From: an uncultured bacterium
Lineage (GTDB): Bacteria; Cyanobacteriota; Vampirovibrionia; Gastranaerophilales; Gastranaerophilaceae
Length of the DNA stretch: 64,000 nt
Assembly (NCBI GenBank): GCA_949282195.1
Contig: CASDOW010000002.1
Coordinates: 86,049-150,048 of the forward strand
Reading direction: 5' to 3'
Under the pieces are notes generated by a model. That model saw only the letters and a program-made list of their open reading frames with translations. It made no database searches and was not told the origin of the DNA. This document shows positions 759-11,728 of this stretch, in pieces (within the stretch, counting starts at the first letter, position 1; every line of letters starts with the position of its first letter). The position numbers and the translations under genes were made by a program.

Positions 759-3260
759 TTATTTATCTTTTTTTACATCATTAGAAGCAATACCAACTTT
801 TTGGGTTAATGATTTTTTACCTGTCAATTTCTTAAATGTCCTGCTCCACCAGCCTATAAAGCCTTTTTTGCTCATTTGTTCATTTTCATATTTTATAATA
901 TCGTCTTTAGATTTCATTTTGCGGAACGGTTGACAAATTGATTTTCTTACAAAAAATTCATTAGTAGTTTCTGTTGCACCTGCAATCAATGTAGCGTCTA
1001 ACAGACTTCTGTTAAGCGGAAATCTAAACACAGAATTAAACACATTCATCAAAGTACCGTTTATAATGAAGTTTGATATTTTATGAGCAAGTCTTTCGTT
1101 GCGTTCTTCTTTTGCAGCCTCAACGTCCTTACCTTCAGATTCGATTAACACTTTATTTGTATAATCATTTACAAAGAAATAGGTAGAAATCGCCGTTACC
1201 ATTGTACGAGAAAGATTTGCCAACTCCCCTGTTTCAGATGATGATTCAAAAGCTCTTGTGTTTCTTTTAATATAATCCAGAATTTTTTCATTACTCCAGC
1301 TTTTTCTGGAAACCAAATCATAAACAGCAACTAATTCTTTTTTAACTTCATTCAAACTAAAGTTATCGTTGCGAGCTTTTAAAGCAGCAAAAGCAGCTTC
1401 AGATTCCTTGAAAATCGTCTTATCCATGAGCATTTCAACTAACATAGCAGGAGCACTCAAAATTTGATAAATAGTTTTAAATACCTTAGTAAAACCGTTA
1501 TAAAGCCCCGGAAGAGCGGGAAGATCTTTTCTGTTATGAATTAACAGTTTATCAGTATCACCTATTCTTTCAATCCCATCAGGCAATACAGTCTTAGATT
1601 CAAGAGCTGCCTGTTTTAATTTTGTGATATTTTCTAAAAATTCATCCAAAATTGGTGCAATTTCAATGCCTTTTTTTGTTTTCCTTAATTCAATGACTTT
1701 ATTTTTCAATTCATCAAGCTCAAAAGAAGAATTATATTTTAAAAATTTCTCTTTAAATTTCGTCTCAAGAGAAAACATTTGCATTCTGCGTTTATATTTC
1801 TTATCCATATTGCTTATTGCTGTTTCCAAATGGTCAGGTAATGATGTTTCATTTCTTAAAGCGTTAATTATGGCACTTTTTGTAACACCATTTTCATACA
1901 ATTTCTTTCTTTCAATTTTTATGCCAATTTGACCTTTTAAACTTCGGCTTATAACATAAAAAGCACAGCAGCCCAATACTGCATATCCAAAAATTTGAGA
2001 TAAACTAAATTTCTTCTTCTTGGAATTATTTCCGTTTTCAGATACTGCCTCCTTGGCAGTTGATTTAACCAAACTGTTCATCGAAGCAAAAGTACCGTCT
2101 TTTGAAGCAAATTGAATAAAAAGATTATCCTGATTAGAGTTTATTCCTGTAAAGTTAAGTTTTTTAGTGTCTTTATCAGATGCAATATTAGGATTAGAAG
2201 TTAAATTTTGTTGTTTTTCGGCTTCTTTTTTAGCGTTTTTCAATTTTCTTTTTTGGGCAATTTTTTTAGCCTGTTCAGGGGTAAGAGGATGCAATGGAGT
2301 TCTGCTGAATATTCTTGAGCCAACTTCTGAAATCAATGAACTTAGCGCAATTACAACAGCATTAATTATAATACTTTTCTTTACTATTTTATCTAGTGCG
2401 CCCAAAGTCACAAATGTAGTTCCTGCACTTAGGAACATTCTTGTTATTTCTTGTTTTAAACGAGAATGATGAGCTTTTTTGGCTTCATCTTTATCGTCTT
2501 TTTGAAGCATTGAGATATTATAAAAATCGTTTGCAGAATATAGCGCGCTAACCATTGATGTAGCTAACCTATTTAGAGTTCTTTCATCTCTGGTGCTATA
2601 GCCTTTATAAAGTTTATTTACATCTAAAGCAACATAATCCTTGAAATGTTCTCTGCAATTTGCTAATGAAAATTTTTGCCCCCCTACTGCTGTCATGGGA
2701 TTATTTTCTTTAGAAACCATATTAAAATAATTTGAAATTTTTTCATTACTTGATAATGAAGTAAATTTATCTAAAATATCAGTACAGAGTTTTTGATTAG
2801 CTAAAATTTCAGAAATTCTTAATCGTTTTGTTTGTATAGGAGTTGCGCCAATCTTTTTTAATACCGCATTTGCGGCACGAACAGGCAATTCAAAAATCGG
2901 AAAAGTAAGCGTATAATACAAATCTGACGCCAAAGCCTGGTTTGTTATTTTAAGCATATCAGGGATAACAATTTTGCCTGAAGCATCTTTTGCCACAAAT
3001 CCGGCTTTATACAAAACATTAGTAAAAAATTTATCACTTCCAAGCACTTGATCAATTGCTTCTACAACCTTTTGTGCATTAGTTAATGTAATATTTTTTT
3101 TTGTTTTATCTATAACTCTACTAAATGTATCATCTACACTGCCCGTAAATTTAATATCTCTGCCTTGGTTTAATGGGGTGGAGCGTCTATCCGCTTTGGC
3201 TTTATTTGCATTGCGGAATTTATCAGCAGAAATAAATTGTTTATTAAATTTTAAATCCAT
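759..3260 (-). CDS. Large lineage-specific membrane protein with an internal duplication
   Basis: I do not recognise a characterised family. The 833-residue protein has an N-terminal region rich in polar residues with RDIKFTG near residue 37, and a second copy of that kind of motif (KLNFTG) in a linker near residue 370. Hydrophobic segments occur near residues 280-310 and 425-445, with further weakly hydrophobic stretches near the C-terminus. Residues about 230-330 and 680-780 look like two copies of one unit: each begins L-x-x-L-x-x-x-M-V-[ST]-A, then N-D-[FY] and a D-x-x-x-A-K patch, and ends in a hydrophobic stretch plus a basic region. The ATG at 3260 is preferred over a TTG two codons upstream. 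It may be a membrane scaffold or secreted factor; the function is unknown. Confidence 0.75.
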   Translation of the reverse strand: MDLKFNKQFISADKFRNANKAKADRRSTPLNQGRDIKFTGSVDDTFSRVIDKTKKNITLTNAQKVVEAIDQVLGSDKFFTNVLYKAGFVAKDASGKIVIPDMLKITNQALASDLYYTLTFPIFELPVRAANAVLKKIGATPIQTKRLRISEILANQKLCTDILDKFTSLSSNEKISNYFNMVSKENNPMTAVGGQKFSLANCREHFKDYVALDVNKLYKGYSTRDERTLNRLATSMVSALYSANDFYNISMLQKDDKDEAKKAHHSRLKQEITRMFLSAGTTFVTLGALDKIVKKSIIINAVVIALSSLISEVGSRIFSRTPLHPLTPEQAKKIAQKRKLKNAKKEAEKQQNLTSNPNIASDKDTKKLNFTGINSNQDNLFIQFASKDGTFASMNSLVKSTAKEAVSENGNNSKKKKFSLSQIFGYAVLGCCAFYVISRSLKGQIGIKIERKKLYENGVTKSAIINALRNETSLPDHLETAISNMDKKYKRRMQMFSLETKFKEKFLKYNSSFELDELKNKVIELRKTKKGIEIAPILDEFLENITKLKQAALESKTVLPDGIERIGDTDKLLIHNRKDLPALPGLYNGFTKVFKTIYQILSAPAMLVEMLMDKTIFKESEAAFAALKARNDNFSLNEVKKELVAVYDLVSRKSWSNEKILDYIKRNTRAFESSSETGELANLSRTMVTAISTYFFVNDYTNKVLIESEGKDVEAAKEERNERLAHKISNFIINGTLMNVFNSVFRFPLNRSLLDATLIAGATETTNEFFVRKSICQPFRKMKSKDDIIKYENEQMSKKGFIGWWSRTFKKLTGKKSLTQKVGIASNDVKKDK

Positions 3261-3382
3261 TACCAATATTTAAAAAATAATACTTCTATTATTTTTCCCC
3301 ATAGTCATACACTAACACAACAAAACATCTGAATATAATTTTTTGCCTAAAATTTTAAGTTTTTTATATTTTTGTTAATAAT

Positions 3383-3411
3383 TTGTATTATATTAAAAAA
3401 TAAATTATCTT
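3383..3411 (+). promoter_or_regulatory. Promoter for the kinase-efflux operon, probably leaderless
   Basis: TTGTAT at 3383-3388 and TATCTT at 3406-3411 are 17 bases apart. Only six bases separate the -10 element from the ATG at 3418, and no Shine-Dalgarno site is visible, so transcription would start at or next to the start codon. Confidence 0.4.
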
Positions 3412-3417
3412 TTTATT

Positions 3418-4965
3418 ATGGATAAGTTGGGTAAAATATTAATTGTAGACGATGAACAAATGGTCACAAAAACAGTTGTTATGCTTTTGGGTCTGGAAGG
3501 CTTTAGCAATGCAATACCTTTTAATAACCCTAAAGACGCCCTTAGTTATCTTGAAAACAACGAAGTCGATTTAATTTTAAGCGATTTTATAATGCCTCAA
3601 ATGAATGGTATTGATTTTCTTGAGCAAGCAAAAAAAATCCAGCCTGAAGTTGCAACAATACTATTAACAGGCTACGCCGATAAAGAAAACGCAATCAGAG
3701 CAATAAATGAAATAGGAATATTTAAATATATTGAAAAACCTTGGGATAACAACAACCTCATTATAAATATCAAAAATGCACTAACTCAAACAAGACTCAA
3801 AAAAGAACTGAATAAAAAAGTTGAAGAGCTTGAAAAACTAAACGCAAAACTTGAAAATTATTCAAAAAATCTGGAACAAATAGTTAGAGAAAGAACTTTG
3901 GAGCTTTCTCAAGCTAACTCAAAATTAAGCGCAATAATTACAAATTGCGCAGACGGTATTATACTTTTTGATAACGACCTTAGGATAACGGATTTAAATA
4001 CAGCAGCAGTTGAGCTTTTTGGTCAAAATAAAAAAGATTTAATCTCAAAAAATCTTTTTGAACTTGTGGTAAGCGAGAAAAAACAATTTAATAAAACCAA
4101 CTTAAAACCCCATGAAAACCTTTTTTTAAGAAATTATTACCTTATAAACTACAAAAAAGATATAAAAATTCCTGTTGAAATAAGTATAGCAACAGTAAAC
4201 GACGACAAAATAAACTTTTATGTTGCAGTAATCAGAGATGTTACTTATCAAAAAGAAACAGAGCGCTTAAGAGATGATTTTATTGCCACTTTGACCCATG
4301 ACTTAAGAACACCCCTATTGGCAACCATTTCAGGATTAGATTTTATTTTGGATAAATCTTTGGGTGATATCACAGACAAACAAACAAATCTTTTTCTTGC
4401 TATGAAAAAAAGCTCGGAAGACATGCTCGGTCTTGTGAATGCACTTTTAGAAGTATACAGATATGAAGCAGGAAAAACATACCTATATAAAACAAAGTTT
4501 GACATAGTCAAACTTGCTAACGAATGTAAAGACGAATTAACCCCGCTTGCAAAAAAATCCAATATAGATTTTAAAATCAAAACAAACGATAATGAAATTT
4601 TTGTCAATGCGGATAAAAATGAAATCAGAAGAGTATTAGCCAATCTTATGGGAAACGCTATCAAGCACTCCCAAACAGACGGAGTTGTTACAATTAATAT
4701 CGAAAAAAACAACAAAGATTTAAAAACAGAAGTAATTGACAACGGTATCGGCTTATCCAAGGATGATTGCAATAAATTATTCAACAGATTTTCTCAAGGT
4801 ACAAACCAAAAACGCTCAAGCTCAACAGGTCTTGGTTTATACCTTTCAAGACAAATTATAGAAGCACACAATGGAAAAATATACGTTGAATCGAAGCTGA
4901 ACAAAGGCTCAAAATTCACATTTGAACTAAAAAACTCAATAAACGATTGTAAGGTAATTTTATGA
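3418..4965 (+). CDS. Hybrid sensor: receiver-PAS-histidine kinase
   Basis: The 515-residue protein has, in order, a receiver domain (acidic pair D11-D12, phosphoacceptor D56, K107), a coiled coil at about 120-170, a PAS domain at about 170-280, a HisKA domain with H294 in THDLRTP, and an ATPase domain with N413, DNGIGL near 441 and GLGLYLS near 471. No membrane segment is visible, so it is a cytoplasmic kinase that can itself receive a phosphoryl group. Its stop overlaps the start of the NarL-type regulator by four bases (ATGA), which makes that regulator the likely partner. The signal is unknown. It heads a run of genes that ends in an efflux-like pair. Confidence 0.9.
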   Translation: MDKLGKILIVDDEQMVTKTVVMLLGLEGFSNAIPFNNPKDALSYLENNEVDLILSDFIMPQMNGIDFLEQAKKIQPEVATILLTGYADKENAIRAINEIGIFKYIEKPWDNNNLIINIKNALTQTRLKKELNKKVEELEKLNAKLENYSKNLEQIVRERTLELSQANSKLSAIITNCADGIILFDNDLRITDLNTAAVELFGQNKKDLISKNLFELVVSEKKQFNKTNLKPHENLFLRNYYLINYKKDIKIPVEISIATVNDDKINFYVAVIRDVTYQKETERLRDDFIATLTHDLRTPLLATISGLDFILDKSLGDITDKQTNLFLAMKKSSEDMLGLVNALLEVYRYEAGKTYLYKTKFDIVKLANECKDELTPLAKKSNIDFKIKTNDNEIFVNADKNEIRRVLANLMGNAIKHSQTDGVVTINIEKNNKDLKTEVIDNGIGLSKDDCNKLFNRFSQGTNQKRSSSTGLGLYLSRQIIEAHNGKIYVESKLNKGSKFTFELKNSINDCKVIL

Positions 4966-5639
4966 CAGAGAAAAAAATAAATATACTACTAGTTGAAGAC
5001 CATGAATTTACAAGACTGGGACTTTCGATGAAACTTGAAAACATGCCTGATTATAACCTTGTCGCTCAAGCAACCGACGGACAGGAAGGTATTATAATGG
5101 CACAAAAATATAATCCTGATGTCATATTAATGGATATAGGTCTTCCAAAAATGGACGGTATTACCGCCACAAAAAAAATTAAAGAAGAACTAAAACTTGA
5201 TTGCGCTGTTTTAATGTTCACCTCAAGAGATAGTAAGGATGATATTTTTGCAGCTTTTAAAGCAGGAGCGGACGGTTATATTATGAAAGGCTCAAGCTCG
5301 GAAAACCTTTTCAATGCAATCAATGCAGTTGCAGTACACGCAGCTTGGATAGATTCACAAATTGCAAGAGTAGTTCTATCAAGTATACAAAATGAAGACA
5401 ATTTACAATCCGAAGAAACAAAAACTCAAAAAGAAGCCAATAAAAAATACGGATTAACTAAAAAAGAGCTTGAGGTTCTTGCTTTAATAGTAGACGGACT
5501 ATCAAACCAAGAAATCTCAGAAAAACTTGTTGTTTCAATATCTACAACAAAAGCACATGTACACAATATATTACAAAAACTATACCTTTCAGACAGAACA
5601 AAAGCAGCAATTGTTGCCCTTAAAGAAGGTTTAGTGTAA
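4962..5639 (+). CDS. NarL/FixJ-type response regulator
   Basis: The 225-residue protein has an N-terminal receiver domain (E12-D13 pair, phosphoacceptor D58 in VILMDIGLPKMDG) and a C-terminal LuxR-type helix-turn-helix. The latter begins YGLTKKELEVLALIVDG and continues NQEISEKLVVSISTTKAHV, the usual GerE fold signature. It is translationally coupled to the upstream kinase by a four-base overlap, so the two probably form a phosphorelay controlling transcription. The following gene starts directly after its stop codon, suggesting one transcript and possible autoregulation of the operon. Confidence 0.93.
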   Translation: MTEKKINILLVEDHEFTRLGLSMKLENMPDYNLVAQATDGQEGIIMAQKYNPDVILMDIGLPKMDGITATKKIKEELKLDCAVLMFTSRDSKDDIFAAFKAGADGYIMKGSSSENLFNAINAVAVHAAWIDSQIARVVLSSIQNEDNLQSEETKTQKEANKKYGLTKKELEVLALIVDGLSNQEISEKLVVSISTTKAHVHNILQKLYLSDRTKAAIVALKEGLV

Positions 5640-6605
5640 ATGTCAAAAAAAATTAAAGTCGCTTTAATTGTTACATTTTGCACTATTTTTTGTTTGCCTT
5701 GTTATTCTTTTGATTTTAAAAAATATCTTCCTTTTAAGAAAAAACAACCCGAACAAAAACAAAGAATGGTTGAAACAAAACAAGAATGGGAAATAGAGGC
5801 TAAGAATGTGCCCTTATCAGAAAGAGAAGAAAAAAGCTATCAAGACCCCAAAAGCACAAAAAAATATTATCAGCCCACACCAAAATATATCTTTGAAAAA
5901 TACAATTACCCTCAAGGCACAAGACAAATAAATATAGAAGATGTAAAGAAAAACCTATATTCATATCCATATATTGTGGCTGACGTTAATTGTCATTATG
6001 TTGCATATCCAAGGTATTATTTTTCTCCTGATATAAACCAAATCTCATCAAATTTTTATGTGGAAAAACTGGATACATCCAAAACAAAAACAAGAAGAAT
6101 TTTAGATTACAATCATAATCAACTTGAAAGAAGAGCAATTATTCAAGCAGGTACAAAAGAAGTTTATCCTAATTTATTTAACGGATTAACATTAGTTGAT
6201 TGGAGTGCTGATGGAAAAAAACTGTTAATAAAAGAACAAATAGGCTCAACCTTAAACGGTATATATAAAACATATTTATATATACATTTTTTAGGAAACG
6301 AAAACCAAGAAAGCTATACAATAAAACTGCTCGATTTGGATGATACAATTAAAAATTATTATCTTGATTGGAAAAATATACAACTGATTAAATACAGATA
6401 TGATATCGAACCACTTGGCTTTAGCGCTGATAACGACAATTTAATTATAGTTTTAAGCTACATCTACAATAAAGAAAATCAAAAAATATTCTTAGGCGCT
6501 TGGAGCTATAATTGCCTAACTCACGAAATTATTTTATTATCCAAAACAAATACTGTATATGAAATAAGTGCAAACGGGCTAATACTAAAAAGAAGTTATG
6601 ATTAA
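5640..6605 (+). CDS. Exported protein of unknown function
   Basis: The 321-residue protein begins with a Sec-type signal peptide (basic N-terminus, hydrophobic core, likely cleavage after CYS near residue 24), then a Lys/Gln-rich linker to about residue 80. The C-terminal part contains spaced W-S-A-D-G-K and F-S-A-D-N-D segments that recall the blades of TolB-like beta propellers, but too few are visible to assign the fold. The start codon abuts the regulator's stop. Its place between a two-component pair and an efflux-like pair suggests a periplasmic role in the same system. No family name can be given. Confidence 0.75.
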   Translation: MSKKIKVALIVTFCTIFCLPCYSFDFKKYLPFKKKQPEQKQRMVETKQEWEIEAKNVPLSEREEKSYQDPKSTKKYYQPTPKYIFEKYNYPQGTRQINIEDVKKNLYSYPYIVADVNCHYVAYPRYYFSPDINQISSNFYVEKLDTSKTKTRRILDYNHNQLERRAIIQAGTKEVYPNLFNGLTLVDWSADGKKLLIKEQIGSTLNGIYKTYLYIHFLGNENQESYTIKLLDLDDTIKNYYLDWKNIQLIKYRYDIEPLGFSADNDNLIIVLSYIYNKENQKIFLGAWSYNCLTHEIILLSKTNTVYEISANGLILKRSYD

Positions 6606-6653
6606 CCTAAAACGATAATTAATTTTAATTGCAATAGGCAATAAAATTAAAAT

Positions 6654-7697
6654 ATGAATTTTATCAGAATTATTCTTCTAACGCTTGCACTGTTATGTTT
6701 TGGCGGATGTAATTATAATAATGAAATTAAAAACATAAGCTATATAAAAATCCCTAAAACCGCTAATTGCAACTATATGGAATTTTACGGCAATATAAAA
6801 TCGCAAAAAATTGCCGATTTAAGCTTTGAAAGTGAAGGCAAAATCATTTTCATTCCCTACATGCAAGGGGATTTTATCAAAAAAGGACAAGTTATAGCCC
6901 GCTTGGACGGAGAACTGTATAAAATTAAAAAGAGAGAACAAATTGCACTTTTGAATAATGCTTCAATAAAAGAGGATCGCTCTAAAATATATTATAAAAG
7001 AATGACAACCCTGCACAACTCAGGCGCAATTTCTGATAACGACTGGGAAGAAGCATATTTTAACTACAAAAGCAGTATTCAAGATGTCAAAGCGCAAAAA
7101 GAAAAACTCAGCTATTTAAATAAACAAATAAGCTACAATATGATAACTGCACCATATGACTGCTATATAGCTGAAAAATATAAAGACTCAGGCTCTTTTG
7201 CTTCAATTGGTGAACCTATTGTGAGAGTTATTGCAACAGGCGATACACAAATTGAGATAATGGTTGATTCAAATATTGTCAACAAATTAAAACTAAATGA
7301 AAAAATAACAGCAAAATTTAATAATCAAAACTACTTTGGCTTTATAAAACATATTTCCCCTTCCAGCTTAAAAGACGGAGGATATATAGTCAAAATTCTT
7401 TTAGATAAAAATTATAAAGATTTAAAAAACGGCATGACCATTAGCGTATTTATCCCTCAAAAAGAAAAATACAGTGCAAAAATACCGCTTACAAGCATTG
7501 TTTTTGAAGACAGTGAAAAATGGGTTTATAAAATAACGGATATAAAAAATAATATCGGCACAATCAAAAAAGAAAAAGTAATCATAGGCGCTATCAACAA
7601 CAATGAAGCACAAATCGTATCAGGAATAAATGCAAACGACATTATAATTGCAAAAGATACAGATAAAATAAAACCTAATTCAAAAGTGAGATTGTAA
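6654..7697 (+). CDS. Lipoprotein periplasmic adaptor (membrane fusion protein, RND/HlyD type)
   Basis: The 347-residue protein has a lipoprotein signal ending in LCFGGC (acylated C19). A biotinyl-lipoyl half motif follows (FESEGKIIFIPYMQGDFIKKGQVIARLDGELY), then a short alpha-helical hairpin at about 95-150 and the returning lipoyl half with DSGSFASIGEPIVRVIATGD. After that come the beta-barrel and membrane-proximal domains. This is the layout of AcrA/MexA-type adaptors, which link an inner-membrane pump to an outer-membrane channel. The next gene, starting immediately after its stop, encodes RND porter-like domains, the expected partner, although that protein lacks the transport helices. No outer-membrane channel gene is nearby. 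Confidence 0.85.
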   Translation: MNFIRIILLTLALLCFGGCNYNNEIKNISYIKIPKTANCNYMEFYGNIKSQKIADLSFESEGKIIFIPYMQGDFIKKGQVIARLDGELYKIKKREQIALLNNASIKEDRSKIYYKRMTTLHNSGAISDNDWEEAYFNYKSSIQDVKAQKEKLSYLNKQISYNMITAPYDCYIAEKYKDSGSFASIGEPIVRVIATGDTQIEIMVDSNIVNKLKLNEKITAKFNNQNYFGFIKHISPSSLKDGGYIVKILLDKNYKDLKNGMTISVFIPQKEKYSAKIPLTSIVFEDSEKWVYKITDIKNNIGTIKKEKVIIGAINNNEAQIVSGINANDIIIAKDTDKIKPNSKVRL

Positions 7698-9281
7698 ATG
7701 AAAAAATTTTTGATAATTTTTTCTTGTGTTATTATTTTTTCTATTATTTATGTAGTAGAAAATTTTGAAAAAAATAAAAATAACTATGAAATTAAAATAA
7801 TAGCAAAAATAGGCAATCTAAAAGCAAAAGAGATTGATGCACAAGTTGCGGAAGAAATAAAAGATAAAATCTCAAACCTTGAAATGGTTAAAGATGTCTA
7901 CATTTTTTCTTATGACGGATATTGTAATATATATTGCAAGTTAAATCCAACAATTATATTTAAACAAACAGCAATAGACATGGTAAAAACAAGGCTGACG
8001 CAAGCTTTGTATAATGTTGACAAAAGAATAAACATATTTTTTGACGATAACAACTCAATTAAATATGATACTTTTATAACTATAAGTACAAATAAAGACT
8101 ATAAAAACCTAAAAGCTCTGACAGACAGCGCCCATGATAAGCTTTTAGATTATAAAATAGCTTCAAAAATAATTAAAATGGGCGAACAAAAAACAACAAT
8201 TTTTGTAAATTACAAAACAGACAACTTAAGAAAATACAATCTTTCAATTAGCGACTTATCCGACTTAATCAATAACAATAATATATATCAAAACTCAAGT
8301 ACAGAAACAACAAAAGATAGTTCATTTCCAATATATAGCAACGCAAGCATAAAAAACATAAAAGATATAGAAAAAATAAGAGTTTATTATAAAAATAGTC
8401 AATTTTCAAACAACCTCGGTGATATTTTTGAAGTTAAAGAAACAACCACAACACCTCCTGAAAGCCTAATATTTTATGATGACAAAAAGACTCAAATCCT
8501 TGCATTAAGAAAAAAAGAAGGATTATTGAGAATAATTTATGATATAAAATTGGCATTTTATTTAAAAGAATTAAAAAAACAAAACGAAGATATAAAAGTT
8601 ATAAAAACCAATACACTGGACACAATCGATGTTTACACGCAAAAAACAAACAGCATATATAAAACAGAACAACTTTATGAAAAAATATCATCATATCATA
8701 ATATAAGAAATATAATATATCTAATTGGAATAAACAGCCCTAAAATCAACAATGATACGGATTTTTTCGAACAAGAATTTAACAAAATAACAATCTTGTG
8801 TCCCAAATATGAAACAAGAAGAATAAAAGCAATACTAAACGAGCTTAATATCGATTATGCAACCAAAGAGAAAAAAGAATATTGCGACAAAAACCTTGAA
8901 AATCTGTATTTAAAAATATCAGAATATAAAAAAGAAAAAAATATAATCAATTCAACCACAGATAAAAAATTATCAATTAATTATAATATAAACGACAAAG
9001 CTCTAAATGCATATAAAATGGATAAAAAAGAAATAGTCAATTCGCTTCAAGGATACTACAAAGGGCTTGAATGTTCCAATTTTTGGCAAGGCAGCTCCAA
9101 CACTAAAATAATATTAAAAAATAATGACAACACAGATACAATTTACGTATATTCAAAAAACTACAAAACGCTTTTTGATATAGCCAATTTTACACAAAAA
9201 GAAATAGAAGAAAATTTCTATAAAATTTCAAGAAAAAATGCACAATACTGTTCAATTGTAAAATTCAAAAACCCTTCTTAA
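7698..9281 (+). CDS. RND porter-domain protein lacking the transmembrane pump
   Basis: The protein is 527 residues, about half the length of AcrB-type pumps (about 1,040). One membrane helix lies at residues 4-20. Residues about 28-320 follow the order of AcrB periplasmic loop 1: a PN1-like segment with ISNLEMVKDVYIFS, a PN2-like segment with NLRKYNLSISDLSDLINNNN, and the returning strand with NNLGDIFEV and the loop-ending helix. Without any hydrophobic block, residues about 330-527 resemble loop 2: an EKISSYHNIRNIIYLIG segment, then NDKALNAYKMDKKEIVNSLQG and LFDIANF. Helices 2-12, which carry the proton relay, are absent. The reading frame is intact and coupled to the adaptor gene, so it looks like a retained protein rather than debris. 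It cannot act as a proton-driven pump on its own. Confidence 0.7.
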   Translation: MKKFLIIFSCVIIFSIIYVVENFEKNKNNYEIKIIAKIGNLKAKEIDAQVAEEIKDKISNLEMVKDVYIFSYDGYCNIYCKLNPTIIFKQTAIDMVKTRLTQALYNVDKRINIFFDDNNSIKYDTFITISTNKDYKNLKALTDSAHDKLLDYKIASKIIKMGEQKTTIFVNYKTDNLRKYNLSISDLSDLINNNNIYQNSSTETTKDSSFPIYSNASIKNIKDIEKIRVYYKNSQFSNNLGDIFEVKETTTTPPESLIFYDDKKTQILALRKKEGLLRIIYDIKLAFYLKELKKQNEDIKVIKTNTLDTIDVYTQKTNSIYKTEQLYEKISSYHNIRNIIYLIGINSPKINNDTDFFEQEFNKITILCPKYETRRIKAILNELNIDYATKEKKEYCDKNLENLYLKISEYKKEKNIINSTTDKKLSINYNINDKALNAYKMDKKEIVNSLQGYYKGLECSNFWQGSSNTKIILKNNDNTDTIYVYSKNYKTLFDIANFTQKEIEENFYKISRKNAQYCSIVKFKNPS

Positions 9282-9293
9282 TTCAAGAAGGGT
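9271..9293 (+). terminator. Hairpin at the end of the efflux-like operon
   Basis: ACCCTTCTT and AAGAAGGGT form a nine-base stem around a five-base loop that includes the stop codon. No strong T-run follows, so it may be a weak terminator or an mRNA 3'-end stabiliser. Confidence 0.5.
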
Positions 9294-9356
9294 CTACTCC
9301 AAATCCGCCATTATCTCTCTCTATATATAAATCTGTTAAGATTAAACTCTTTTTTA

Positions 9357-9578
9357 TTATCTTGCTATTCTGAAGTTAATCATTGCTTTGTGGTTAACTG
9401 CGATTAATTCCATTGAATTCCAGAATTCGTTTGGTTGAATAGCTGATTTAGTGTTGTCTAGGTTTACAGTTACTTTTGATGAATAAAGTTCTGCTAATTT
9501 TTTATCGAAATCTTCAGTAATTTTCAGTTTTTGTTTATTTCTTTACAAAACTTTACATAAATTTTTTACCAAATTCAT
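9357..9578 (-). pseudogene. Small reading frame interrupted by an in-frame stop
   Basis: Starting from an ATG at 9578, 15 bases after the enolase stop, the frame encodes MNLVKNLCKVL, then TAA at 9543-9545. It stays open in the same frame for 61 more codons to TAA at 9357-9359. The downstream part has protein-like composition (for example LAELYSSKVTVNLDNTKSA and NEFWNSMELIAVNHKAM) and codon use like the surrounding genes. No ATG or GTG lies near its beginning. It could be a decayed gene, a gene with a sequencing error in codon 12, or a protein started at a rare codon such as ATT. I do not recognise the family. Confidence 0.4.
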
Positions 9579-9595
9579 CTTTGATTTTATAGCAT

Positions 9596-10873
9596 TTAGG
9601 AGTGCTTTGAAAAAAATTCTCTACCAAGATACTTGGCACTGCAGCCTAAAACACTTTCGATATATAAAAGCCTATTATATTTCATTGTTCTTTCGCTTCG
9701 AGACAGAGAACCCGTTTTAATAAAACCCGAATTTAATCCAACTGCTAAATCTGAAATAAATGTGCTTTCTGTTTCACCTGAACGATGAGAAATGATTGTT
9801 TTATAATTATTTCTTTTAGCTAAATCCACACACTCAAGGGTTTTAGTTAATGTACCTATTTGATTTAGTTTTATTAAAATTGAATTTGCTGCATTATTTT
9901 CAATTCCGTTTTTTAATAACTCAGAATTTGTCACAAAAAAATCGTCACCAACAAGCATAACTTTTTTATTTAAAATTTGCGTTAATTTTATCCAAGATAA
10001 AAAATCATCTTGCGCTAAACCGTCTTCAATTGAAACAATAGGGTAATTTTCACATAAATCTTTTAAATAATCTATCATTTCATCGCTTGTTAGGCTTTTA
10101 TTTTCAAAGTTGTATTTTCCGTCTTTATAAAATTCGCTCGCTGCAACATCAAGCGCAATTTTAATATTATCTGTTGAATATCCTGCTTCAAAAATGGCGT
10201 CTAAAATTATTTCCAAGGCTTCTTTATTGCTTTTCAATTGAGGTGCAAATCCGCCTTCATCACCAACATTTGTTGATAAATTTTTGCTTTTTAAAATATT
10301 TTTTAAAGCATTAAACACTTCAAGAGAAATTCTTATTGCTTCAGAAAAACTCGCAACACCATAAGGTACAATCATAAATTCTTGAAAATCAAGCTCATTA
10401 TTAGCATGTGCTCCGCCATTTAAAATATTAATAAAAGGAATGGGCATAGTTAGGGAATTAATTCCGCCTAAATATTGAAATAATTCAAGATTAAAAGCTT
10501 TGCTTGCAGCAGCACAAACTGCCAAAGACACAGCTAAAACAGAATTAGCTCCAAGATTGGAAAGATTTTTTGTATTATCTATTTCAAGCATAATATTATC
10601 AATCTCAAACTGATTAAAAGGGGATTTATTAATTAACATTGGAGCAATAACATTATTAACATTATCAACCGCTTTTAGTACACTTTTTGAATACAAAAAA
10701 TCAGGATTATTATCCCTTAATTCTAAGGCTTCATTAATTCCAACCGAAGCCCCCGAAGGAACCGATTGAATTGCTTTTATTCCGTTATTCAGTTCTACAC
10801 GCGCGCAAACCGTAGGAACTGCACGCGAATCAATAATTTGCCAAGCTTTTATATCTTTAATTAAAATTGCCAT
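9596..10873 (-). CDS. eno: Enolase
   Basis: The 425-residue enzyme interconverts 2-phosphoglycerate and phosphoenolpyruvate in glycolysis. Visible active-site elements are NGGAHANNELDFQEFM, GDEGGFAP, IALDVAASE (metal Asp), SIEDGLAQDD (metal Glu), LVGDDFF (metal Asp), LIKLNQIGT (catalytic Lys) and SHRSGETE. The length is normal. The otherwise nearly invariant N-terminal DSRGNPTVEV reads DSRAVPTVCARV, and the usual IKTGAPCRSER reads IKTGSLSRSER, so it is a divergent enolase that keeps the catalytic residues I can identify. It follows flgC by 51 bases on the same strand and may share the flagellar transcript. Confidence 0.93.
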   Translation of the reverse strand: MAILIKDIKAWQIIDSRAVPTVCARVELNNGIKAIQSVPSGASVGINEALELRDNNPDFLYSKSVLKAVDNVNNVIAPMLINKSPFNQFEIDNIMLEIDNTKNLSNLGANSVLAVSLAVCAAASKAFNLELFQYLGGINSLTMPIPFINILNGGAHANNELDFQEFMIVPYGVASFSEAIRISLEVFNALKNILKSKNLSTNVGDEGGFAPQLKSNKEALEIILDAIFEAGYSTDNIKIALDVAASEFYKDGKYNFENKSLTSDEMIDYLKDLCENYPIVSIEDGLAQDDFLSWIKLTQILNKKVMLVGDDFFVTNSELLKNGIENNAANSILIKLNQIGTLTKTLECVDLAKRNNYKTIISHRSGETESTFISDLAVGLNSGFIKTGSLSRSERTMKYNRLLYIESVLGCSAKYLGREFFSKHS

Positions 10874-10924
10874 AAGAACATCTTATGGCAATTTAATAAA
10901 AATTTAATTACACTATAGACTAAA

Positions 10925-11353
10925 CTATTTACCGATTTCCAAAGAAGCAACTGCCATTGCTTTTGATATGGTCATCACGCCCAAAGACGCTTCATAAGCA
11001 CGCTGCGCAATAGTTGCATCTGCAATATCAACCATAGCATTAGTGTTTGATGTTCTTATATATCCGTTTTCATCTGCATCAGGGTGCCCCGGCTTATATA
11101 TTTTAGCTCCCGGAGTAGGATCTTCAACTATACCGTCAAAATTTACACCCCCAAGGTTAGAAGAAGCAGCACCCATGCCCATTGAAGACAATACCGTTGC
11201 AAAACTTTGGTCTTGATTAGATGAAATCAATGGAATTTTTCTTGTATAGTTTGGGGTGTCAATATTTGCGATATTTTTAGCAGCTATTTCAACACGTTTT
11301 CCATGGACAGCCAAGCCCTCGCGCCCTATTTGAAATGCATTCATTAAACCCAT
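10925..11353 (-). CDS. flgC: Flagellar basal-body rod protein FlgC
   Basis: The 142-residue protein has the FlgC N-terminus (AFQIGREGLAVHGKRVEIAA with the rod-family KNIANIDTPNY), a central KPGHPDADENGYIRTSN segment that is highly typical of FlgC, and the C-terminal ADATIAQRAYEASLGVM helix. FlgC is part of the proximal rod that joins the MS ring to the distal rod. It follows flgB by 12 bases in the four-gene rod cluster. Confidence 0.92.
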   Translation of the reverse strand: MGLMNAFQIGREGLAVHGKRVEIAAKNIANIDTPNYTRKIPLISSNQDQSFATVLSSMGMGAASSNLGGVNFDGIVEDPTPGAKIYKPGHPDADENGYIRTSNTNAMVDIADATIAQRAYEASLGVMTISKAMAVASLEIGK

Positions 11354-11365
11354 AATCTAATCTCC

Positions 11366-11728
11366 TTAACCGTTAGCTGAAACATTCATAGCGGTTTTAA
11401 TTTCTGTAATTGTGCTGGACAATTGACGAACAGCAACATTATAAAGCAGATAATTTTCCTGCATTAAAGATAGTTCGTCTTCAGTGCTTATGTTTTCGCT
11501 TTGAGAATTAAAGCTTGCAATAGGCGCTGAACCATATTTATCAATTAATTTGCTCTCAAGATTAGAAGAAACTCCGCTATTTAAATATTGAGAAAAATCA
11601 ACGTCTTTTCTTCTGTAACCTTTTGTATGCATATTGGCAATATTATCAGACAAGCACTCTTGTCTTTGAGAAACCAAATCAAGCATTTGCTGTGGTTTAT
11701 TTAATAAATTTAAAGGTAATAATCCCAT
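11366..11728 (-). CDS. flgB: Flagellar basal-body rod protein FlgB
   Basis: The 120-residue protein carries the rod-protein N-terminal motif CLSDNIANMHTKGYRRKDVDF and a C-terminal helix with ELSLMQENYLLYNVAVRQL, as expected for FlgB, a proximal rod subunit exported by the flagellar type III apparatus. It lies directly upstream of flgC, the usual order. It is slightly shorter than typical FlgB because the central loop is compact. Confidence 0.88.
   Translation of the reverse strand: MGLLPLNLLNKPQQMLDLVSQRQECLSDNIANMHTKGYRRKDVDFSQYLNSGVSSNLESKLIDKYGSAPIASFNSQSENISTEDELSLMQENYLLYNVAVRQLSSTITEIKTAMNVSANG

Follow-up and report, generated by a model that had tools for sequence, protein, structure and literature searches.

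The open reading frame at 7698-9281 (+) of the window, the whole 64,000-nucleotide stretch of DNA analysed here, encodes a 527-residue membrane-less RND stub (sRND), which is an RND protein by descent and by predicted fold, and in which the membrane-embedded motor of an AcrB-type pump is missing. In current descriptions, RND pumps work through a proton-driven membrane domain. The stub keeps a single helix followed by the porter and funnel parts, and its gene lies directly behind that of a periplasmic adaptor. The reading proposed here, tentatively and as something short of probable, is that an AcrB-type pump has been reduced to one helix plus porter and funnel, and serves as a motor-less docking platform that seats the adaptor on a TolC-type channel. 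An earlier note on this DNA had described an intact frame for the porter domains of an RND pump, lacking the rest of the pump and placed beside an adaptor, and this description holds.

The host is a member of Candidatus Gastranaerophilales, an order related to cyanobacteria that NCBI assigns to Candidatus Melainabacteria. The genus of the window (g1) is represented by 28 genomes, its own included. Other genera are referred to as g26, g36, g37 and g39; g36 is termed related, and not sister, to g1.

Anatomy of the stub

The stub matches the Pfam family ACR_tran (PF00873) above its curated cut-off (41.1 bits against 28, E 6.7e-11), and the g26 short form reaches 81 bits. The AlphaFold model of the stub has a pLDDT of 82.8. 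In Foldseek searches with this model, AcrBper chains took ranks 1-16 among PDB entries (E from 1.3e-28 to 6.3e-26; TM-score by query 0.70-0.73), and AcrBper also filled the first 16 places with the second model; the unrelated fold that the earlier note had named as the outcome contradicting its reading did not appear.

All parts of the gene are on the + strand. The single N-terminal membrane helix, equivalent to TM1, is encoded by 7698-7769, as indicated by hydropathy and by a model helix at residues 2-23. It is followed by the PN1 subdomain (7788-8051), the first part of PN2 (8052-8186), the DN funnel/docking subdomain (8187-8456), the second part of PN2 (8457-8609), PC1 (8610-8855), the first part of PC2 (PC2a, 8856-8957), the DC funnel/docking subdomain (8958-9188) and a shortened end part of PC2 (9189-9278), and the gene ends before helices 8-12. 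These boundaries are our own approximate assignment, made from the model (for PN1, the order of its secondary structure) and from alignment with full-length relatives. Both periplasmic loops of RND pumps (PN1, PN2, DN and PC1, PC2, DC) are present, fused without helices 2-12 into a predicted AcrB porter fold in the manner of AcrBper.

Of the twelve membrane helices of an RND pump, helices 2-7 and 8-12 are absent. The short forms were compared as 33 aligned rows, made up of 25 genus members, four g26 proteins and four database proteins (P0008 being nearly identical to that of G112). All of them lack a block that, in the full-length g36 pump G062, comprises residues 331-545 and has hydrophobic segments spanning 331-544. 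They also lack nearly all sequence past about residue 838 of that pump, whose helices 8-12 start at about 849. Since the block of helices 2-7 is absent, the porter loops are fused where two domains meet, between residues 304 and 305 of the window protein (junction at 8607-8612). By hydropathy, the N-terminal segment is the sole hydrophobic one in 33/33 short rows; the frame of G296, from g26, leaves its contig at 553 residues, so that only the loss of helices 2-7 is visible there. A three-residue gap following the first helix is common to the short forms of g1 and g26. In RND pumps the proton-relay residues sit in helices 4 and 10, and the helices that would bear them are absent from the stub. 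Energised transport by a protein of this sequence, without helices 2-12, is not expected.

Around the gene, a terminator-like stem of 12 pairs covers the stub stop codon (9269-9295, listed for the - strand, a consensus match only). Promoter-like sites are close in number to expectation (43, against 35.0 with sd 6.0 in shuffled sequence), and an Rfam scan of window positions 3000-11500 gave no match. Downstream of the stub, three pieces of window 9342-9567 match C12:59171-59404 of the same genome with 93-100% identity, the latter copy being without about 60 bases relative to the window. Several congener contigs stop shortly past the stub gene, as would be expected if a repeat came next.

The partner adaptor

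The adaptor, a periplasmic membrane fusion protein of 347 aa and a predicted lipoprotein, is encoded at 6654-7697 (+) and matches TIGR01730 (RND_mfp) above its cut-off (164.2 bits against 94.9, E 3.5e-48). The codon of the predicted lipidated residue, Cys19, lies at 6708-6710 (+), the lipobox being recognised by pattern only. By eye, the lipobox cysteine is absent in 4/25 genus adaptors (G001, G004, G012 and G014) and present in the other 21; lipid anchoring of the adaptor is therefore not universal, which counts against the docking platform. Residues 116-127 (6999-7034, +) form an RLS motif (RMTTLHNSGAIS, pattern RxxxLxxxxxx[ST]), which is described in PMC3391258 as the adaptor contact with the TolC tip. 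The motif occurs as RxxxLxxxxxxS in 29/29 adaptors paired with short forms, and also in the 20 other adaptors examined, with T for S in one.

The adaptor gene is immediately 5' of the stub gene in 29/29 short loci of g1 and g26. In the window its stop codon abuts the stub ATG (0 bp), and in the 28 other short loci the distance from adaptor stop to stub start is -35 to +3 bp, with starts called by script. This spacing suggests translational coupling. The constant pairing and the kept motif speak for the docking platform, as does the near completeness of DN and DC in 25/25 genus members.

A further possibility is that the stub is a decoy, capturing adaptors or TolC-type channels and thereby limiting the activity of the real pump. 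Such a role would agree with the kept docking parts, the absent motor and the kept RLS motif of the adaptor, but every short locus examined has its own adaptor and there is no sign of shared parts, which makes it very unlikely.

Distribution and selection in the genus

An intact short stub of 408-558 aa follows the adaptor, at one locus, in 25/28 genus genomes, in the order RRHK - LuxR - UNK321 - adaptor - stub. The search for short homologues next to adaptor genes, as the earlier note had advised, thus bore out its reading, and the gene is not a deletion unique to this genome, though full-length versions exist in related genera. A sequencing or assembly artefact was ruled out, the same architecture being found in 25 genus genomes and in several protein-database clusters. 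In the remaining three genomes (G006, G013 and G015) neither the stub nor a close adaptor homologue was found; the flanking genes are still present in G006 and G013, and the contig of G015 ends just past them. A protein search with alignment A4 returned one distant 1,006-aa protein and no new short form, a silence that means little because the same search missed the g26 short forms it was built from.

Frames are unbroken in 25/25 genus loci and in the g26 loci, with that of G296 running off its contig. Among five close genomes out of the 25 genus members (10 pairs), the stub has a dN/dS of 0.067-0.106, and among four g26 genomes (6 pairs) one of 0.101-0.144; that of the full-length g36 pump is similar (0.042-0.122, 15 pairs, six genomes). 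All these ratios are rough, since dS frequently exceeds 1. They argue against neutral drift of the stub, but not against its slow loss. The stub is also fast evolving, with an identity of only 23-39% to 20/24 genus members.

DN (84-90 residues) and DC (73-102 residues) are retained in 25/25 genus members. PC2a is cut to 0-17 of 34 residues in 5/25 (G003, G009, G018, G012 and G007), and PC1 is shortened to 52-70 of 82 residues in the first four of these and lost in G007. The smallest stub, that of G007 (L057:748-1971, 408 aa), is without PC1 and most of PC2a and has no Pfam match. The 442-aa stub of G012 (L055:9014-10339), which has lost all of PC2a and part of PC1, matches ACR_tran at 0.0025, too weakly for Pfam recognition. 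Both retain DN and DC. Across the 25 genus members conservation is highest in DC (0.38) and DN (0.37) and lowest in PC2a (0.26); in ten full-length g36 pumps it is highest in PC2a (0.82) and lowest in PN2a (0.68), with DC at 0.72 and DN at 0.75. These subdomain values are taken as supporting evidence and no further, because DN shares the lowest conservation with PC2a (0.73 each) when the five closest genomes are compared. The funnel is therefore not under the strongest constraint at all depths of comparison, which counts against a docking platform.

It could be argued that stub and adaptor are a relic left by a pump that was inactivated, with a periplasmic part that still folds, is tolerated and erodes stepwise. 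This reading is unlikely. The size gradient from 558 to 408 aa, with most of PC2a lost in five stubs and PC1 in one, would follow from it, and so would the fast divergence and the loss of both genes in 3/28 genomes; the divergence, together with a G007 stub below Pfam recognition, weighs against the docking platform. A relic, however, fits poorly with a dN/dS of about 0.1, like that of the full-length g36 pump, with uninterrupted frames, with an RLS motif kept in all 29 adaptors and with the same cut in g1 and g26.

The neighbouring kinase/regulator block

The earlier note had also coupled the pair to the neighbouring kinase and regulator, a link that did not survive comparison between genomes. 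G006 and G013 have the block RRHK-LuxR-UNK321 but neither adaptor nor stub, and in 7/7 g26 genomes checked the homologue of UNK321, the third gene of the block, is on a contig other than that of the adaptor. Judged by gene order, the neighbouring kinase and regulator probably do not belong to the stub system. UNK321 itself (window 5640-6605) is a 321-aa secreted-looking protein with no Pfam or NCBIfam match; its homologues occur in 19/20 genomes tested, independently of adaptor and stub.

The same neighbourhood bears on the proposal that the stub is a periplasmic sensor or a sequestering protein, which binds a ligand in the old drug pocket. The predicted fold retains the porter subdomains, and AcrBper is stated in PMC8617272 to bind drugs without a membrane part. 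Against this, the Pfam matches of the kinase (receiver, PAS, HisKA and HATPase) include no membrane or periplasmic domain, the block persists where the stub is missing, the eroding parts are those of the pocket (PC2a and once PC1), and the TolC motif of the adaptor would be purposeless. A sensor or sequestering function is consequently regarded as quite unlikely.

Full-length relatives and number of origins

In g36, the RRHK - LuxR - UNK321 block is followed after a few genes by an adaptor and a full-length pump (L058, L060 and L105-L112), the block being partly outside the fetched stretch in some of these loci. The family search covered 15 g36 genomes, of which 14 have a frame of 1,012-1,044 aa, that of G196 among them having a stop inside the matched stretch; in the remaining genome, G335, the pump is divided between two contigs. 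A 300-aa tyrosine recombinase gene (Phage_integrase, 1.2e-45; L058:11085-11987) precedes the adaptor of a full-length g36 pump, and ORFs of similar size are found at its position in other g36 loci; in g1 it is absent between UNK321 and the adaptor.

The nine g26 genomes of the family search are mixed: five have short forms and three have full-length pumps (G052, G086 and G210), and in G284 the pump gene, cut by the contig end, has a full-length-like beginning. Four of the short stubs, those of G112, G246, G261 and G296, are 553-573 aa long. Homologues (47-61% identity) of the two genes 5' of the full-length locus of G210 occur in G052, in G086 and at the loci of these four short stubs, and the gene 3' of the G210 pump is also 3' of the stub in L061, L101 and L102. 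G229 has, at another locus with other neighbours (L145:6294-8838), an adaptor with an RLS motif, read by eye, and a divergent 506-aa RND-like protein that matches ACR_tran at 0.0093, under the cut-off. This is possibly a third reduction, and yet a tree in which the G229 adaptor is forced to group with its four counterparts from other short g26 loci is only slightly worse (p-AU 0.276).

The adaptor tree groups the g26 adaptors (100/99) and rejects a single clade of short-paired adaptors, with p-AU 1e-4 when 18/25 genus rows are included and again with p-AU 0.0067 when G229 is added (12/25 genus rows). The tree of the stub itself (14/25 genus rows) conflicts with this, as it unites all short forms (91/100) on long branches, which is a point against the docking platform; alternatives that set g26 alone (p-AU 0.342) or g1 with g36 (p-AU 0.153), groups that were named after that tree had been seen, are not rejected. 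From the adaptor trees and gene order, at least two reductions have apparently taken place, in conflict with the stub's own tree.

Other RND, TolC and transporter genes

The genome of the window has one ordinary 1,100-aa RND pump elsewhere, with its own adaptor and a TolC-type gene. At E <= 0.001, its other RND-type matches are this complete pump and SecD only, the latter with a weak ACR_tran match. The suggestion in the earlier note that another gene might supply the missing helices was rejected accordingly, as no gene consisting solely of those helices was found in the genome. Within the genus, a full-length RND frame of 1,069-1,112 aa is found in 26/28 genomes and is in pieces in the other two, and TolC-family (PF02321) genes occur in 28/28, in line with a docking platform.

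Three g26 stubs have, 22 bp 3' and on the same strand, a gene for a 535-aa protein of the sulphate permease family (PF00916, 1.1e-60), at L061 (11066-12673), L101 (10525-12132) and L102 (10097-11704). The full-length pump of G210 has such a gene behind it as well (L104:11889-13520). The family match comes with a STAS domain, which was tested for L061. As the gene follows short and full-length forms alike, a membrane partner is possible there. In 16 g1 loci, the nearest downstream ORF of >=100 aa is never on the stub strand within 300 bp.

It has to be considered, then, that the stub may be energised by another inner-membrane protein, either the full-length RND pump, in a mixed trimer, or the sulphate-permease-family transporter of g26. 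The AcrB-like pump of the same genome, the full-length frames across the genus and the permease genes close behind three stubs all make partners available. The full pump, however, has its own adaptor, is kept in G006, G013 and G015, which have neither stub nor adaptor, and does not match the stub by blastp at 1e-4, whereas g36 pumps do. The permease gene, for its part, is present alongside a motor at the G210 locus, and the g1 loci have no counterpart downstream on the same strand. An external source of energy is on these grounds rather unlikely.

A proposed motor-less docking platform

Among a passive porter, a sensor and an externally energised subunit, the three roles raised by the earlier note, the passive docking platform is favoured. 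In AcrB, according to PMC8277102, neighbouring protomers exchange hairpins of the funnel subdomains DN and DC, PN1 lies along the axis of the trimer, and the cleft through which substrates enter is made of PC1 and PC2. The stubs keep the region responsible for trimer formation and for seating the adaptor, they have always lost the motor, and some of them have lost part of the entry cleft; from this pattern we infer a docking platform. The current model proposes that the stub would trimerise through its retained DN/DC hairpins and PN1, that the adaptor ring would be seated on the funnel, and that a TolC-type channel encoded elsewhere in the genome would be recruited. The resulting assembly could be a passive or gated conduit from the periplasm to the outside, with no proton relay, since the relay sits in the lost helices.

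A wider claim, that repeated loss of the motor has produced a new tripartite class in which a natural counterpart of AcrBper, a lipoprotein adaptor and a TolC-type channel form an envelope-spanning conduit free of the proton motive force, is for now doubtful. The motor has been discarded, apparently more than once, and the porter, the funnel, the adaptor and its TolC motif are under purifying selection, which points to an assembly role that is separable from the transport role. Natural single-helix versions of the AcrB porter are suited to structural work on the docking of adaptor and channel. They also pose the question of what such an engine-less tripartite assembly lets through or gates.

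Comparison with known systems

The stub is homologous, in sequence and predicted fold, to RND pumps of the AcrB/MexB/OqxB/TriC/MexK type (PF00873), and their adaptor-pump gene order is the same as that of adaptor and stub. Direct full-length relatives of the stub are present in g26, g36, g37 and g39. In contrast to these pumps, the stub is half as long and has one helix only, hence no proton relay; because it is without helices 2-12 and their relay, it is not an RND pump by the features tested. Its partner is a regular member of the AcrA/MacA-type adaptors (TIGR01730) with an RLS motif, but, unlike these, it pairs with a motor-less protein. SecD/SecF and other variant proteins of the RND superfamily have part of the RND fold in common with the stub; in these proteins, however, the membrane helices are kept and the periplasmic part differs, which is the opposite reduction. 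No report of a natural membrane-less RND protein was found in the open-licence literature searched, nor among the titles listed there for Gastranaerophilales and efflux.

The closest known thing to the stub is, to our knowledge, man-made. AcrBper, in which the two periplasmic loops of AcrB were joined by design into a soluble protein (PDB 5EN5 series, 7B8R/S/T), has the same domain content, although the g1 stub, unlike AcrBper, lacks the end of PC2. AcrBper is artificial and soluble, whereas the stub is natural, anchored by one helix and paired with an adaptor.
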